Source: a virus. From it: a stretch of DNA of 52,589 nucleotides. Shown one piece after another: positions 1 through 52,589 of this stretch. The notes beneath the pieces were generated by a model. That model worked only from the letters and a program-made list of their open reading frames with translations. It made no database searches and was not told where the DNA came from. The position numbers and the translations under genes are program-made. The stretch is from positions 1 through 52,589 of IMG/VR virus record IMGVR_UViG_3300005617_000012; one strand, given 5' to 3'. The stretch's first letter is position 1. Each line of letters starts with the position of its first letter.

Positions 1-366
1 GGGGAAGCAGTCATGTCGTGGCGCGGGGAAGCAGTCATGTCGAGGCGCGGGAAAGCAGTCATGTCGAGGCGCGGGAAAGCAGTCATGTCGAGGCGTGGGG
101 AAGCAGTCATGTCGTGGCGTGGGAAAGCAGTCATGTCGTGGCGCGGGGAAGCAGTCATGTCGTGGCGCGGGGAAGCAGTCATGTCGAGGCGCGGGAAAGC
201 AGTCATGTCGAGGCGTGGGAAAGCAGTCATGTCGAGGCGTGGGGAAGCAGTCATGTCGTGGCGCGGGAAAGCAGTCATGTCGAGGCGTGGGAAAGCAGTC
301 ATGTCGAGGCGTGGGAAAGCAGTCATGTCGAGGCGTGGGGAAGCAGTCATGTCGTGGCGTGGGGAT
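1..366. repeat. 24-bp tandem repeat array, left contig end
   Basis: Fifteen copies of a 24-bp unit (ggggaagcagtcatgtcgtg plus gcgc) run head to tail from base 1; the core gtcatgtcg recurs every 24 bases from position 10 to 346. Copies differ only at three positions (A/T, C/T and G/A). The unit length is a multiple of three and the array is coding: in the frame of the downstream gene it reads SSHV(V/E)A(R/W)(G/E). The same array occurs at the right contig end, so the contig was broken inside it. True copy number is unknown because short-read assembly collapses such arrays. Confidence 0.97.
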
Positions 367-875
367 CGGTAACTGTTGCCGTCCAATCCGATTATTCAAT
401 CATAACTCTTTTCGCATTCGCTATTGCCATTGCTTCCTTCGTTAAGAACATCACCAAAAAAAGCAAAACCTGCTCTGTTGTAAAAATCCCGCCCGCCGAA
501 TGGACGGTTAAAGGGTGGCTCGAAAGACAAGGGATCGAAGCGAAGAATAAACTCGTCACTATCTTCAAGCGCGTTTCAATCGATTTCAAGACGCAAGAAG
601 GAACTCCCAATGAAACTTTATGGTCAGTTGGGCTGATTGTCGAGCACAAGGATTGGAATCCCACAAATCAAGAATGCGGCCCTGGCAAGTTCCACGCATG
701 CGGACGGCCTTACTTCTGCGACGAGTTTCGCGATAAGAAAGGTGATCGCTACATTGCGATCCAAGTAGCGGTCAAAGACCTTCACGCTTGGGAGAATCCT
801 GGTTATCCCAATAAAATCGCATTCCGTTCCTGTAAAGTTCTTCACGAGTGCAACCGTTTCGGGGAGAAACTGTGA
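3..875 (+). CDS. Octapeptide-repeat protein, C-terminal part (gene split by contig ends)
   Basis: This reading frame is open from the left contig edge. It begins with about 15 copies of the octapeptide SSHV(V/E)A(R/W)(G/E), then a hydrophobic stretch (ITLFAFAIAIASFV) followed by a basic segment, then a roughly 140-residue C-terminal domain with the motif GKFHACGRPYFCDEF. That domain resembles the DUF7666 group of phage proteins; I am only moderately sure. No ATG, GTG or TTG lies between the repeats and the conserved domain, so the start must be in or before the repeats; the natural start is at 52302. Eight-residue repeats of this kind probably fold as a beta-solenoid (inference). The stop overlaps the GTG of the macro-domain gene by 4 nt. 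Joined across the ends with one missing base the protein would be about 387 residues, or longer if repeats were collapsed. Function unknown. Confidence 0.8.
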   Translation, partial: GSSHVVARGSSHVEARESSHVEARESSHVEAWGSSHVVAWESSHVVARGSSHVVARGSSHVEARESSHVEAWESSHVEAWGSSHVVARESSHVEAWESSHVEAWESSHVEAWGSSHVVAWGSVTVAVQSDYSIITLFAFAIAIASFVKNITKKSKTCSVVKIPPAEWTVKGWLERQGIEAKNKLVTIFKRVSIDFKTQEGTPNETLWSVGLIVEHKDWNPTNQECGPGKFHACGRPYFCDEFRDKKGDRYIAIQVAVKDLHAWENPGYPNKIAFRSCKVLHECNRFGEKL

Positions 876-1303
876 AAATCATCACCGGCAGCCTCCTAGA
901 TCAAAAAGGCATTCTTTGCCATCAGGTCAATCTCAGGGGCATAATGGGCGCGGGCCTCGCGTTGCAGATTCGTCAGAAGTGGCCATCGGCGCATGATGAC
1001 TATGTGCGGTATTGTCGCGAGGGCGCGAAGCTGGGCGACGTGCTATTTTCGATTGTGAATGATGACCAAATCGTTGCGCATTGCTTCGGACAATCGGAAA
1101 TATCGCGCGATCATTGTGTGACGGCATACGAATTCTATCCTGAGATTCTGAAAACGGTTGAGGACTATTCAGCCGGGAGCGACTCGCCGGTCTTCATTCC
1201 GCACGGGATCGGCTGCGGGATTGCGTCTGGAAATTGGGGAGTAATGCTTCCTTTGTTGGAAAAACACTGTGCCTCGGCTACTCTAGTAAACTATGAATAT
1301 TAA
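872..1303 (+). CDS. Macro-domain (ADP-ribose-binding) protein
   Basis: This 143-residue protein is a stand-alone macro domain, a fold that binds ADP-ribose and often hydrolyses ADP-ribose derivatives such as ADP-ribosyl esters or ADP-ribose 1''-phosphate. Visible motifs are ILCHQVN near residue 14, the ligand loop GIMGAGLA at about 23-30, and IPHGIGCGIASGNWG at about 109-123, the pattern of the TARG1/ALC1-like branch. The chosen start is GTG at 872: it overlaps the TGA of the repeat-protein gene in a GTGA junction and has a GGGGAG ribosome site 5 nt upstream. The end overlaps the next gene. In phages such enzymes could reverse defensive ADP-ribosylation or recycle NAD breakdown products; which applies here is inference. 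Confidence 0.88.
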   Translation: MKIITGSLLDQKGILCHQVNLRGIMGAGLALQIRQKWPSAHDDYVRYCREGAKLGDVLFSIVNDDQIVAHCFGQSEISRDHCVTAYEFYPEILKTVEDYSAGSDSPVFIPHGIGCGIASGNWGVMLPLLEKHCASATLVNYEY

Positions 1304-14529: not shown

Positions 14530-14718
14530 ATGTACGAAACTTGCAAAACCATTTTACGCCGGAAGAAAGAACGGCGATGCACCCGATGCAATCATAAGCT
14601 GCCCAAGAAAAATAAATCGAAATGGGTATGCGATCCTTGCCGCGAAAAGTATAATGACGCACAGAGGGAACGTAGATACTCCCATTCTCGACCGGCTTCT
14701 ATTTTCGATGGATTTTAG
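14530..14718 (+). CDS. Small zinc-finger protein
   Basis: The 62-residue basic protein carries RCTRCNHKLP and WVCDPCREKYN, two CxxC pairs 19 residues apart, so it probably binds one zinc ion and perhaps nucleic acid. It follows the fucose-synthase gene after two bases and ends overlapping the convergent terminase gene by four bases. Function unknown. Confidence 0.65.
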   Translation: MYETCKTILRRKKERRCTRCNHKLPKKNKSKWVCDPCREKYNDAQRERRYSHSRPASIFDGF

Positions 14719-16445
14719 GCGAGAAGGATAGGATCGCTCGCTGTATAAGTTGCATCCAAGCTAGAAGCTTCCATAACGGCCTCTCTCCACTCTTGGTTCC
14801 ATCCAAGAGGCCCGGCAAAGTATCCCTGCTTGCGCATGTTGTCGATAATCATCACGGAAGCATCCTCTTCATCGGGGGAACGGCCCAGAATCTTTCGTGC
14901 ATCAAGCTTGCTGGCCAAAAGGCTTCTTCCATTCTTGACCGTGTAAATACGGCAACCAAAGCCCCTCGCCATCTGATTGGTGACACCGCGAACTTGATTG
15001 TTCATGACGAAAGTCCGCATCCCAAAATAAAGTTCCGTGACGCTATTCCAGTAGGCATCGCAGCATCGTTGAGCGTCAATGGATGAGACGGGTAATTCAG
15101 ATGCACCGCCGCCAAACTCCACCCCATGGACTTCCATTGACCATTGCTGCTTGATAATGGCCATGACTCCACGGCCAACGCCGGTTTGATCGCCTGAGAA
15201 GTTGCGAGGCTTCACGCCACGGCTCTTGCAGTATTGGATAGCTTGCTCTGCAATTTGGAAATCCATCGGTTGCGTCTTGCTGGCCACGGTCTTGATTTCA
15301 ATCTTGTCCTCAAAGACAATCCCCATCCTGGCCGATTCTCCTTCGGGTAGGATAAAGGTTCCCACCTTGGCAAATTTGAGTACGCAACCATCCCCGCCGA
15401 AAGCCGGATCAAGGGCAGCATACCATTCCCATCCAAAACCAAGTTCCTGAGTTTTAAGCGCATTGAACTTGATCAAAAGCGATTCGGAAACTACAGCGTT
15501 ATAAGAATCGTCAGGAGGAGGAAATCCACGCACCATTTGCCAATAATGGATGGAATCTTCCCCATGTTTGGCGATAATCTTATCAATCGATTCCTGAGAT
15601 TGATTCCATGGCGCTGAGCCAGGATCGAGCACGTTGGGAGACTTCAATCCATCGAAATGGATACAGACGCCCGTTGCGGTCTCCCATTCATCCATGTCAA
15701 CATTGACGCTCTCGGGGTTTCCGGACTTGGGCATCATCACCTTGCCCATGGTATTCATCCATGAGCAGCCATTGCCTGTGCCGACAAACTTAAACTCTTC
15801 CGTACCGGATTGAAGATTCGCGCACGAATCGATGACCTCTTCCGTCATGTCCTGCAATTCGTCAGCAAGGACTAGAACATATTTCGCGTGCCAGCCTTTG
15901 AGTTTCGTAACGGCATCGTTGGTGTATTTCTGTGAACCCGGAACGATGGCAATAGCGTGCTGACTGTCACCCTTGGTTGCCTGAATTTCAGTAGAAGAGT
16001 CCAGAAGATGTCCGGGAAGCGTATAGCCAAGCTTGTCCTCTGCGGTTTTCTGAGCCGCCATGTAAAGGGTCTTTAAATGAGCCCAGATACGCTTGCGCGA
16101 CATCAGAACGCTGGTAGAGGTCACAGCTACAGCAAAGTCACCCTTGGGCGCACTCCACATCCATACAAGCGCAAAGCGGGCAATCTCCCATGATTTACCT
16201 GCCGAAGCGGGGCCAGAGAAAATGACTTCACCCGAGCGGCAAAGCCCTTCCTGTAGCCGATGCGTCCAGTCTGAATAGGTTGTATCGGGCCAAAGTATCT
16301 TGCAGATTTCCTGATAGTGTCCCAACCGCCCTAAGCCTCCCTCTTCCTCGGGTAGGCGATGGCGAAAGCACCAAAGCTCTACCTGAAGATCGTCCCATTC
16401 CGTTGGCCAGATTCGATCATACCTATCAATTGGTTTTCGGGGCAT
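14715..16445 (-). CDS. Terminase large subunit (TerL)
   Basis: The 576-residue protein is the DNA-packaging motor. The ATPase domain shows Walker A GPASAGKS (78-85) and a Walker B/catalytic pair VLVLADELQD with D195-E196. The nuclease domain has acidic sites ALDPAFGG (D346), FSGDQTG (D419) and a late PDEEDAS around residue 535, the RNase-H-like metal cluster of headful or cohesive-end nucleases. The start MPRKP at 16445 overlaps the preceding gene by 20 nt; the frame is open 20 codons further. Its small-subunit candidate lies 17 kb away, not next to it. Confidence 0.95.
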   Translation of the reverse strand: MPRKPIDRYDRIWPTEWDDLQVELWCFRHRLPEEEGGLGRLGHYQEICKILWPDTTYSDWTHRLQEGLCRSGEVIFSGPASAGKSWEIARFALVWMWSAPKGDFAVAVTSTSVLMSRKRIWAHLKTLYMAAQKTAEDKLGYTLPGHLLDSSTEIQATKGDSQHAIAIVPGSQKYTNDAVTKLKGWHAKYVLVLADELQDMTEEVIDSCANLQSGTEEFKFVGTGNGCSWMNTMGKVMMPKSGNPESVNVDMDEWETATGVCIHFDGLKSPNVLDPGSAPWNQSQESIDKIIAKHGEDSIHYWQMVRGFPPPDDSYNAVVSESLLIKFNALKTQELGFGWEWYAALDPAFGGDGCVLKFAKVGTFILPEGESARMGIVFEDKIEIKTVASKTQPMDFQIAEQAIQYCKSRGVKPRNFSGDQTGVGRGVMAIIKQQWSMEVHGVEFGGGASELPVSSIDAQRCCDAYWNSVTELYFGMRTFVMNNQVRGVTNQMARGFGCRIYTVKNGRSLLASKLDARKILGRSPDEEDASVMIIDNMRKQGYFAGPLGWNQEWREAVMEASSLDATYTASDPILLA

Positions 16446-19400
16446 TGGCTCGCATTTGTTGGAATCTCTGAATAAGCAGCTTTCGACGGGCAACCGCAGC
16501 ATCAAAGACTTGTTTATCGTGATCGTTCAGAGACTCATAAAACTTCATGTCATCGGCGCGGCTATCAGTAAAGGGGCGATTGATCGATTCCACAAGGCCC
16601 TTGCTCACCTTGGCAGAATTACCCTTGGCATCCACGAGCATCGCTTCATACAGCTTATTGGCCTGATCGTAGTCTGCGTCTTCCAAGGCGTACTTAAGGG
16701 GTGTATATGCGCTTGTAGGATAAACTCCCCGATCAACTTTGTAACCGGGTTGTGTTTCCTCCCACTTTTTAGCCAAGGGAAAGATTTGTTGAGCGGGAGC
16801 AAAGCGAGCGACTTTGATACCCAAAGCTCCCATGAATTGCTCTAAGGGTGAGACAGGAGAATTGACTCCCGTTGCCGAAAGCCCTCGAGTCACAGATTGC
16901 AAGGGAATGGGGACTGTCTGCGCCAGCATGTCACGGAAGATGTCTGCGCTTTCTACCTTCTCCCCGCGATAGTTCACCCCGCTTGCTCCCTCAAGAAAGA
17001 TGCGTCCCACGGGATTAAGACGGCCCGTTGCGAAGGTTCGCGTATTAGAAAGCATCTCCTGAAAGTCAGAAATATAGGATCGCATCATATAGGAGCGATC
17101 TTTGTTCACGATGCGGAAAGCGTTCTCGGGTTCCCAATGCGGATCGTTTTTAGGATCAAGCGCAGCATTGGCAATGCGTGCCAAAACGTACATCGCACCG
17201 CCTAGAATGGCAAACGACCGGAATTGCTCACGATTAGCTTTGCTGCCCGTGAAGCCTGAGATAGCAGAGATTGCATGCCGTCCGCGAGCCTCAAAGAAGT
17301 CCGGTGCAAGGGCCATCATCCCAAACAAATGTTGGAAGGTAGGATTGCGATGGATGTCCGCATAGTTCAAGTGGCCGTAGGCGTTATTCGTGTCATAAGC
17401 CGAACGATACTTCACATCGTCAACGGTCAATTTTCCGTCCTGAATTTCCTTGGCAAACCTCGCCATGTTACGGGCAAGAATGTTTTCGTAAGTCTTGGCC
17501 TTAAGTCGGGGAATGAAGTTTTTGAATGTCCATTCCGTGGAGTCTTTCGCCAAGGAGGCAAGATACTTGCCTCCCGCATCTTTTAGACCGGGCAGCTTTT
17601 CCAAAGCCTCCACAAGCAGGGAATTGTTTGCGCTGAATCCTTCCATGAAATTACGCATGCTCGTTTCCGTTCCGTAGAACTGAACTCCATGCGCGGCCAT
17701 GTCGTAATACTGAGGATCATTCAAATCGGGGGGATGGGCGAACATATCCTTGAGCGGATTGACGCCATAGCCCACCGCGCCCGTTGCTTCCTGCTGGATA
17801 TGGAAGACGGGGAAGCCGCCAAGTAGCGTTCCCTTAATCCATTTCCGGGCATCATCCAAAACGGTTTCTGTAGCCTTGCGAGCGATATTCGCAACGGTAT
17901 TCGTGTCACGCTTTTTCATCCAATTCTTGAACGCCGATTGCTCAAAGATATGCTTAAATTGCGTATGGGCATCCGGGTGGATTTGCATGTCCCCCTTGGC
18001 GTAGATCGTTTTTCCGTCAATAACACCATTGTAATACCAGTTCGTAAAGGCGGGTAAATCCAAGCTGTCGTAGTCCTGATGCTCGCCCCATTTGAAAGGT
18101 TTCAGGATCAACCGTGCTTTGCCCTTGGGATTCTCGACATCAATCCATTTGCCTTGCTGATTAGGCGAGACGATGGGCCTTCCGTCTGGCATCTGGCCCT
18201 TGCTCAAATTGTCTACGAACTTCCGGGCATTGAGGATGCCTAAGGCTTCATTCATGTAGTGACCAAGAATGACACTGGAATCGGTCGTTTCCGGTTCGAG
18301 TCCCATGCGCCAACCATCAAAGAAAGTTGCCACAGAACGGTTGCCAGCGTACTTAAACGATTGCTTGAGTGGACGGCTGGTAAAATTGCGAATCGTGTCC
18401 CCTGTCGAATCCTGCTTCCAAAGATGGGTGATGTAATTCTGAACCTCGCCAACGGGGATACCGTACTTAATCAAGGCATCTCGTGTGAGGGCAAAGTTCT
18501 TGCTAATTCGATTGGCCCATGAAATCTCATGCGGAGTCAGGGTTTTAGCCGCCTCAAGTTGTCGGATATATTCTTCGTTCGCATCGTTCTTCGGCGCGGC
18601 CTCCACTTGCTTTTGCCAAGTGTCCAAAGTTTTGATGTCGCCACCCGCTTCAACGTAATGGGAGATGCCGCTGCGCCGGGTAGCGTTTGGGATATCCTTC
18701 TGGAATGTCTTGACTGCCTTTTCAATGGTCTGAGTCTTGACCTGCTCATCGGCATTAAGGGTGTTAACCGACCGCTGCAAGTCACCGTATTTGCGCATAC
18801 CAAAAAGCTGATCTTTGAGTTTACTACCTGTTTCTTTGAGAGCATCTTTGACGCTTGGTTTGCTGGCAAACAACGGTTGCCCATTCTCCTGCACGCTCTT
18901 TCGCATGGCATCATTGATGGGGAGTTTCCAGATTTTTGTTTTGTTGCGAACATCGGTTTTAACGGATTCGCCGGTCTCAATGTTGCGTCCCTCCCACTGA
19001 TTGACGCCTTCTTTCTGAATGGGAACTTCTGCGATCTCCGGCTTCACTCCCCACTTCTTCGCATACTTCTCCACGTACTGAGGCATGATCTTGTCGTAGA
19101 AACCTTTCATGCCTTCGCCGCCGACTTTAAGATCAGTCCCAGTATAGTTGCCAACTCGATCAGGTTGGTCAAAAATCTTTTGAGCCAAGTCCTTTCCAAC
19201 ATAATCAGGCAGTTTGTCCTTGGGAACCGAGCGCTCCAAAGACTCCATTGTTGAATGAGGCGTTTTTTGAACAGCAAGCTCGTATGTGCCGTCAGGATTT
19301 TTCAACGCCTGAACTAGGTGTACCTGCTTGCTCAAATCAAACCTGTTGCCCTGAGTCTCGCCAGTAGTCCAACCGATCCAATCTTTGCCCGAGGCAACGG

Positions 19401-51828: not shown

Positions 51829-52224
51829 ATGAATCCAATCGCTGAAAAAAACAGATACCTCAAGCAAGAAAATAAGAAATACGAATCCGGCATTTTTGTT
51901 TCGATCCACTCTTCAAAATGGCCCGAAAATAAAACACCTCGACCAATCCTTGCCGTTTATCGTTCCAGAGATTTTCTAGTGACCGTTTACGGCGGGGAAA
52001 CAATAAGACTTTCAATCTGCCGCACTTGGTTGGATCAAAGCGGGCGGTGGCAAGACGGAATATCCTGGGACGAAATTCAGGAAATTAAAAACAAGTGCGG
52101 ATTCCATGACAAAGACGCCGTTGAGATTTATCCAAAAGAAGAGGATGTCGTTAATGTGGCCAATATGCGTCACCTCTGGATATTGGAAGAAAACTCGCTT
52201 CCCTTTATTTGGAGGAAACATTAA
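51829..52224 (+). CDS. DUF7694-like protein, start of rightward early operon
   Basis: The 131-residue protein has a basic N-terminus, a beta-rich middle (GIFVSIHSSKW; FLVTVYGGETIRLSICRTW) and ISWDEIQEIKNKCGFHDKDA followed by MRHLWILEE. The order of a short strand segment, the WDEIQ helix and the final HLW pattern resembles the DUF7694 phage family. It is the first gene in the rightward set that crosses the contig junction. No ribosome site is visible. Confidence 0.65.
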   Translation: MNPIAEKNRYLKQENKKYESGIFVSIHSSKWPENKTPRPILAVYRSRDFLVTVYGGETIRLSICRTWLDQSGRWQDGISWDEIQEIKNKCGFHDKDAVEIYPKEEDVVNVANMRHLWILEENSLPFIWRKH

Positions 52225-52301: not shown

Positions 52302-52589
52302 ATGAAATCAATTACTGTTCGCAATCAGAAAGAGTGGAACGCACTACCTAAAGCATTTTCCGAAATAACGATTATTCGGATTGAGTCCGATGCCAATGTT
52401 TGGCTTTCGATTTCGGGTAAACCGGAATCGTCTTGCGTCGTGGCGCGGGGAAGCAGTCATGTCGTGGCGCGGGGAAGCAGTCATGTCGAGGCGTGGGGAA
52501 GCAGTCATGTCGTGGCGCGGGGAAGCAGTCATGTCGTGGCGCGGGGAAGCAGTCATGTCGTGGCGCGGGGAAGCAGTCATGTCGAGGCG
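52302..52589 (+). CDS. Octapeptide-repeat protein, N-terminal part (open at contig end)
   Basis: ATG 52302 opens a frame that has no stop before the contig end. It encodes a 45-residue cap domain (VRNQKEWNALPKAFSEITII; SDANVWLSISGKPESS) and then six octapeptides of the form SSHV(V/E)A(R/W)G. The frame matches exactly the frame that continues at base 3 into the C-terminal part ending at 875; one base is missing at the junction. It is therefore the first part of the same gene. No other protein would be encoded on this strand here. The cap and repeat arrangement is typical of beta-solenoid proteins that begin with a folded cap (inference). Confidence 0.85.
   Translation, partial: MKSITVRNQKEWNALPKAFSEITIIRIESDANVWLSISGKPESSCVVARGSSHVVARGSSHVEAWGSSHVVARGSSHVVARGSSHVVARGSSHVEA
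52437..52589. repeat. 24-bp tandem repeat array, right contig end
   Basis: Six copies of the same 24-bp unit as at the left end; gtcatgtcg occurs every 24 bases from 52456 to 52576. The contig stops after gaggcg. Joining this end to base 1 leaves the repeat one base short (a C or T), consistent with an assembly cut rather than a natural end. Confidence 0.97.

Follow-up and report, generated by a model that had tools for sequence, protein, structure and literature searches.

The window, by which we mean the whole stretch of DNA analyzed here (52,589 bases, identical to the complete virus record IMGVR_UViG_3300005617_000012), is most likely a circular-mapping phage genome that, judged from homology between its two ends and a single protein family, was opened by the assembler inside the repeats of one gene. 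The N-terminal half of this gene lies at the right end and the C-terminal half at the left end. The gene adds a member to the hypervariable repeat genes of phages, a class already known but still unexplained. We hold the topology and the gene identity, taken together, with very high confidence. An earlier, sequence-only reading of this DNA had inferred such a topology and was correct in substance, with an ordinary cause; the interesting part is the way in which the repeat array diversifies.

As that reading had described, the frame opened by the ATG at position 52302 is uninterrupted to base 52589, and frame 3 of the left end stays open, starting at base 3, until the stop codon at 873-875. The two ends also share an identical type of 24-bp unit, in 6.4 and 15.1 copies that match the unit at 94-96%. 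Read in frame, the units encode VVARGSSH-like octapeptides, and among them, the last degenerate one excepted, only three bases vary, located in V/E, R/W and G/E codons. Frame continuity alone is weak evidence because the array is open in nearly every frame; at the left end, five of the six frames (three forward, two reverse) contain no stop. The evidence that carries the assignment to one gene is the homology of both halves to one protein, as far as sequence comparison can tell. The profile phrog_15773, representing the Che8 gp59 family, matches both halves, with much of the score contributed by repeat sequence (C-terminal domain alone, E 0.003). Order and frame of the halves are compatible with a single ORF consisting of an N-terminal head, an octapeptide array and a C-terminal domain. 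Together with the intact relatives and seven more split contigs described below, this strongly supports the claim that one gene is cut at both contig ends (Table 1).

Table 1 Features of the window and of related sequences. Chance values give the probability of an equal or longer end overlap when the contig's own units are shuffled.
Feature	Sequence	Position or length	Strand	Remarks
N-terminal half of the repeat gene	window	52302-52589	+	head of ~46 amino acids and first octapeptide units; leaves the contig at the right end; phrog_15773 profile 2-92 of 288, E 9.2e-20
C-terminal half of the same gene	window	3-875	+	15 units and C-terminal domain; stop TGA 873-875; phrog_15773 profile 43-251 of 288, E 7.4e-50
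24-bp tandem array, right part	window	52437-52589	+	6.4 units
24-bp tandem array, left part	window	1-363	+	15.1 units
C-terminal part	window	372-875	+	final strands of the solenoid, then the DUF7666-like domain (25.3 bits; cut-off 27); invariant columns among relatives
Final 47 bases	window	52543-52589	+	same sequence as bases 1-47, perhaps an overlap left by the assembler; chance 0.11 (0.08 in another simulation)
Initial 47 bases	window	1-47	+	identical to 52543-52589
First 71 bases	window	1-71	+	repeated at 145-215; longest exact repeat in the array, right at the contig end
Upstream gene	window	51829-52224	+	DUF7694, E 5.4e-19
Downstream gene	window	872-1303	+	resembles a macro domain (Pfam Macro at E 0.027 only); phrog_335 "phosphatase" at E 9.7e-20
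Terminase large subunit	window	14715-16505		phrog_2, E 1e-8
Split contig	G010	191,122 bases		exact in-frame end overlap 127 bases, chance 0.0002
Split contig	G011	81,540 bases		exact in-frame end overlap 57 bases, chance 0.0081
Split contig	G037	106,152 bases		exact in-frame end overlap 57 bases, chance 0.0225
Split contig	G055	40,118 bases		exact in-frame end overlap 107 bases, chance 0.0025; match of the C-terminal half weaker, E 1.6e-8
Split contig	G021	61,440 bases		without exact end overlap
Split contig	G024	36,665 bases		without exact end overlap
Split contig	G025	37,319 bases		without exact end overlap
bbp36 of BPP-1	L177	12777-13706		VR2-bearing; DUF7666 above the Pfam cut-off
Pentapeptide-repeat gene	G004 (L120, G004:C1)	1-330	-	PF00805, E 2.4e-32

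Matches in the phage collection numbered 26 records for the right half and 29 for the left. Inspection by eye of the 25 records with a match starting in the head (residue ≤5), many of them near-duplicates, showed that 22 also hold the C-terminal part at this place; the exceptions without it beside the head were two records of Soul22 and MW202615. Head, octapeptides and C-terminal domain were found in one frame in seven of the eight full phage ORFs that we read (ThetaBob, Squirty, MW202485, Spooky, Frankie, Che8 and SkinnyPete, all complete phage records), the eighth being that of MW202615, without the C-terminal domain.

A profile built from six C-terminal domains found 55 loci in IMG/VR and MAG sequences, 49 viral and six from genomes. 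Among these, 26 viral and three genome loci run off their contig on the 5′ side; by eye, three of the 26 viral loci are broken within the C-terminal domain and about three within or close to the head. A head of this kind starts all 26 closed ORFs (23 viral, three genome), as recognized by pattern in 24 and by eye in L161 and L174. This set includes two duplicates (L149 of L145 and L171 of L130) and one ORF that ends early within the C-terminal domain (L170). Searching with the head instead yielded 74 loci, two of which (L249 and L251) match in the array only: 29 leave the contig, and of the 45 closed ones 29 possess the C-terminal motif and 16 lack it. By eye, three of these 16 are DUF7666-like in other wording, eight have an unrelated C-terminal domain and five are short or broken. 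The other domain, present in eight of 45 closed loci with an N-terminal head (L179, L180, L187, L188, L200, L201, L207 and L208, the last two identical), is characterized by an ITGACxxG.. motif; of two examples compared with Pfam, L187 gave a sub-threshold match to DUF4261 and L200 none. In these sequences, the module of head plus array is mostly, though not in every case, joined to the C-terminal domain found in the window. Other types of units precede the C-terminal domain in L147, L160, L165, L166, L173 and L176, for instance a 10-residue SSSPxIEAR and a 22-residue SYNSHPLPEG unit.

One half runs off in 52 distinct contigs (26 + 29 - 3). In seven of the 52, the N-terminal and C-terminal halves lie at opposite ends, on one strand and head to tail; for the remaining 45, the other half was not found, which a fragment or a too divergent second half would both explain. 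All five exact end overlaps (G010, G011, G037, G055 and the window) retain the reading frame, and all of their lengths (127, 57, 57, 107 and 47 bases) end in 7. The k-mer list of one common metagenome assembler runs from 27 to 127 in steps of 10, which the five lengths would fit. For the window, a k-mer of 47 would be too simple an explanation given the internal exact repeat of 71 bases, and the overlap would have to stem from an early step of the assembly, or from chance. Overlaps of at least 47 bases arose by chance in ~8-11% of simulated cuts of the window array, hence the window's own overlap is modest evidence. The 71-base repeat sits at the contig end, where an assembly break caused by a repeated k-mer would put it, and in eight of 29 loci running off at the 5′ end the terminal bases also form the longest repeat of the gene (at least 40 bases).

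Joined, the two ends give a single rightward run of ORFs from 51829 to ~2982. The claim that the join needs exactly one base was too narrow: frame and repeat phase are kept by any gap of 1+24n bases, and also by a zero gap with the 47-base overlap collapsed. The joined array has ~19.5 units in the latter case versus 21.5 with a one-base join, hence the expected minimum of 21 units is not required either. Circular or redundant topology, which had been called proved, is strongly supported, short of proof; circularly permuted, terminally redundant and truly circular DNA all fit the data. No close relative bridging the window junction was found in searches with the macro-like neighbor, the terminase, a tail-fiber-like gene and the right-end gene; the macro-like neighbor returned no loci and the terminase three, and the related contigs G001-G004 do not bridge the junction. 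A DNA search of the phage collection with the C-terminal domain returned nothing. The DUF7694 neighbor was discarded as a marker for such relatives because it is too widespread (best 80 of 119 relatives).

Two other arrangements could place repeat-gene halves at the ends of a contig. The window might be a linear fragment between two paralogous repeat genes, with the true genome being longer; other C-terminal domains can indeed follow N-terminal heads. Against this, tblastn gave no second significant match to the head or the C-terminal domain within the window (next best E 0.63 and 0.24, respectively), and no further tandem array was found elsewhere in it. Moreover, fragments between paralogs should also give other orientations, whereas the seven split contigs, of 36-191 kb, are all head to tail, and one of them (G010) closes with an exact overlap of 127 bases. 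We consider such a fragment very unlikely. It is extremely unlikely that the array is the natural end of a linear genome with termini in the repeat. The identity of the first and last 47 bases would suit termini in a direct repeat, but intact genes in one ORF occur inside contigs and in complete, linear genomes of phages, their arrays well away from the termini, and the recurrence of the first 71 bases as the longest repeat of the array fits a graph break.

A related phage is represented by G002 (29,323 bases) and G004 (25,078 bases) from one metagenome and G003 (44,300 bases) from another. G003 bridges the other two, being 100% identical to G002 and 99.99-100% identical to G004 along its length. 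Blocks of DNA similarity between these contigs and the window are colinear over window positions 3.6-51.4 kb. The G004 contig stops inside a tandem-repeat gene at the map position of the window's repeat gene (~52.3 kb). Like the window gene, it opens with a short N-terminal head, after which a tandem repeat runs out of the contig at the orthologous position; unlike it, the repeats are pentapeptides of the PF00805 type with 15-bp units and give no tblastn match to the window. We count this parallel in favor of a break made by the assembler. Near the other end of G002 lies an IS1-type transposase gene (L102, G002:C1, 112-942, minus strand; DDE_Tnp_IS1, E 2.7e-8).

To describe how array units vary, we used 37 arrays of at least five units with 405 units in total, obtained from 44 arrays by leaving out two duplicates and five short ones and counting the window parts as two arrays. 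Base 2 of codon 1 varied in 36 arrays, base 2 of codon 6 in 34 and base 1 of codon 8 in 34, and the remaining 21 positions of the unit in 0 to 7 arrays, with the exception of base 2 of codon 8 (12 arrays). We counted 147 extra amino acids versus 13 extra synonymous codons. In a reduced set without the window halves and one of each near-identical pair (32 arrays, 348 units), the corresponding numbers were 31, 29 and 29 arrays and 131 versus 11. Because the unit pattern demanded V or I at position 5 and A at position 7 and restricted positions 1 and 3, the low amino-acid variation at positions 1, 3, 5 and 7 is partly by construction, with the synonymous counts unaffected; a motif-free array finder gave a like picture (40 of 45 arrays of at least five units).

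Changes at the three variable sites, in the following called toggles, all alter the amino acid (G/E, V/E and W/R), with little synonymous change. The fixed codons differ among arrays, with GTT, GTC, GTG or GTA for valine 5 and all four codons for alanine 7, and each array therefore seems to be homogenized independently while the toggle sites stay mixed. All eight combinations of the toggles were seen among 325 units (55, 50, 49, 44, 40, 38, 30 and 19 times). Correlations between toggles of neighboring units were weak, with no |z| above 2.7 in 30 tests, and we therefore claim no stacking code. The pattern is looser in cultured phages, in which ThetaBob varies at positions 3 and 4, Che8 at position 4, and Squirty shows GCG and GCA at 12:8 at position 3. 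This looser pattern lowered our estimate for a solenoid with selected toggles, a joint claim that we regard as probable.

Array length changes between near-identical phages, as pairwise sequence comparisons indicate. L128 and L131 are 99.94% identical over 3,489 bases of C-terminal domain and downstream DNA and contain ~8 versus at least 20 units, and L150 and L161 are 100% identical over 3,390 bases, with arrays of at least 10 versus 14 units. Frankie and SkinnyPete are 100% identical over 456 bases of the C-terminal part and 99.1% over 429 bases of upstream DNA and head, yet have 14 versus 12 units in differing order. The base changes at the toggles (T/A, C/T, A/T and G/A) fit no single mutator, which makes selection on amino acids during the recombination of units the likelier cause. 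The toggles also do not look like those in the target of a diversity-generating retroelement, where substitutions are adenine-directed against a template repeat: most of them exchange GTx with GAx, CGG or AGG with TGG, and GGx with GAx, and adenines are thus not the only bases that change. Assembly of tandem repeats is error-prone (PMC6868369), and the variation from unit to unit could in principle reflect a mixture of strains or assembly errors. This is highly improbable, however, as positions 1, 6 and 8 (and also 3 and 4) vary in the complete genomes of the cultured phages Che8, ThetaBob and Squirty and variation at positions 1, 6 and 8 extends across the 37 arrays of differing codon choice.

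AlphaFold models were obtained for the intact relative L136 (pLDDT 89.7) and for window bases 3-872 (pLDDT 93.1). Both display the pattern EEEE---- per octapeptide, a four-residue strand and a four-residue turn, with a mixed domain after the array. The protein is thus predicted to be a beta-solenoid of octapeptides followed by a DUF7666-like C-terminal domain. The solenoid part resembles beta-helical adhesins and an antifreeze protein, with a best Z of 14.9 (TibA), in a range that is not rare for repeats. For the C-terminal part, the curated cut-off of Pfam DUF7666 (PF24703) is exceeded by Che8 (46.8 bits), ThetaBob (46.7 bits) and bbp36 of Bordetella phage BPP-1 (41.7 bits), whereas the window domain is just under it. 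The fold of this domain possibly has a weak resemblance to ADP-ribosyltransferases (ART). Foldseek listed Arr 2hw2 (probability 0.82, E 0.21, TM(target) 0.40), in rows that give no aligned range. Arr 9iaf was in both lists, PARP10 in one and tRNA 2′-phosphotransferase in the other, all at E 0.2 or worse; no match to the ART fold at E ≤0.001 was present in the two lists, and rows for an N-terminal fragment of the CNFy toxin rank level with Arr. The structure 2aua aligned to model residues 175-283 (Z 6.6, rmsd 3.5, 86 residues aligned), a level that is common according to the tool. We take 2aua and tRNA 2′-phosphotransferase to be members of the ADP-ribosyltransferase superfamily. These fold lists hardly test the C-terminal domain separately from the solenoid.

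Among known genes, Che8 gp59, ThetaBob gp59 and Squirty gp51 of Mycobacterium phages and Gordonia phage Spooky gp76, all hypothetical proteins, share with the window gene the N-terminal head, a GSxxVxAx array and the C-terminal domain. Here too, arrays differ between near-identical genes. The family differs from the window gene in that matches reaching the C-terminal domain are only 25-44% identical to it, repeats included, and in that positions 3 and 4 also vary in the arrays of cultured phages. A second parallel is bbp36 of Bordetella phage BPP-1, the gene that holds VR2. Like the window gene, it fuses DUF7666 (E 1.7e-10, above cut-off) to 24-bp octapeptide units, 14 by a six-residue pattern, in which the codons of those six residues are constant and the other two vary. 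In contrast to the window gene, DUF7666 comes first and the array follows, the unit is GTATAGYR, and by eye a head of the window type is absent from the start. The comparison suggests that the VR2 gene and the window gene are built from one type of domain and one kind of array, arranged in reverse order relative to each other; the link runs through Pfam DUF7666, sub-cut-off on the window side, and comparing the profile of the window domain directly with that of bbp36 gave only a weak match (probability 8.5%, E 0.004).

In PMC2884959, VR2 of Bordetella phage BMP-1 is described as a 24-bp element in 9-20 copies, depending on the isolate, in a gene that is not essential and whose role is given as unknown. 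The same paper reports for the tetrapeptides of mycobacteriophage Tweety gp54 that repeat number and the third and fourth residues vary, with third codon positions invariant, and its authors considered this pattern consistent with selection for variation and likened it to BMP-1 VR2 (PMC2884959). Tweety gp54 and Che8 gp57 differ from the window gene by their 12-bp units opening with two alanines; Che8 gp57, the counterpart of Tweety gp54, is located two genes upstream of Che8 gp59 and gave no Pfam match at E 0.1. In the literature, we found no paper on DUF7666 or the unit peptides.

The GTG start of the downstream gene at 872 overlaps the stop codon of the repeat gene (GTGA). We scanned 95 of 114 ORFs downstream of relatives, excluding 19 duplicates or reverse-strand ORFs. 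For these 95, Pfam Macro was not among the 25 families listed of 30, at a threshold that would miss the window's own gene, and phrog_335 can match at most one ORF, being absent from a list of 25 of 99 families that includes all those with at least two members. A paired reading, with an enzyme (ART-like domain) and its antidote (downstream macro-like gene), was therefore dropped, as the macro-like neighbor does not recur. The downstream neighbors are mostly single finds; the named ones are of types such as DNA methyltransferases, resolvases and nucleotide kinases. Such neighbor types fit an early or middle, non-virion gene. A promoter scan of the window's right end found none, and terminator-like sites there were near the shuffled mean. 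The window's terminase gave no tblastn match among 50,697 phage records, which places the phage in a poorly sampled group.

Taken together, the window would be the complete or nearly complete genome, with a circular map, of an uncultivated tailed phage. The assembler would have stalled in the 24-bp array within one gene and opened the circle there, leaving the N-terminal half at the right and the C-terminal half at the left. The gene, of the Che8 gp59 (phrog_15773) family, would encode a short N-terminal cap, an octapeptide beta-solenoid in which each unit forms one strand and one turn, and a DUF7666-like C-terminal domain. Its array would gain, lose and reshuffle units, most simply via recombination between them, which would homogenize most codons while three sites stay mixed by single-base changes (G/E, V/E and W/R). 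From the strand register, these toggle sites probably face outward. We hold this explanation as a whole with high confidence.

On function we can be only tentative. The solenoid may be a binding face, renewed rapidly, whose role is to present the C-terminal domain, with its possible ART-like fold, or to aim it at a variable target of the host or a rival phage in the cell; this binding and ART-like function is conceivable, with the odds against it. More doubtful still is a broader reading, in which the gene would be a non-retroelement diversity generator driven by unit recombination and selection. Three mostly two-state sites in near-free combination would then give a solvent-facing solenoid with "3 bits per unit" that aims the ART-like domain at changing targets, and since this array also breaks assemblies, the system would go unnoticed at the ends of many viral contigs.

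A complete phage genome with a circular map can be mistaken for a fragment if assembly breaks within a coding tandem array. Looking for the two halves of a single gene at the contig ends would recover such genomes, for which there are seven more candidates here. Despite their many different codon choices, the arrays share the three sites at which most of the variation occurs, with few synonymous changes, and the purpose of VR2-type phage repeats, an old question, becomes testable in cultured mycobacteriophages.
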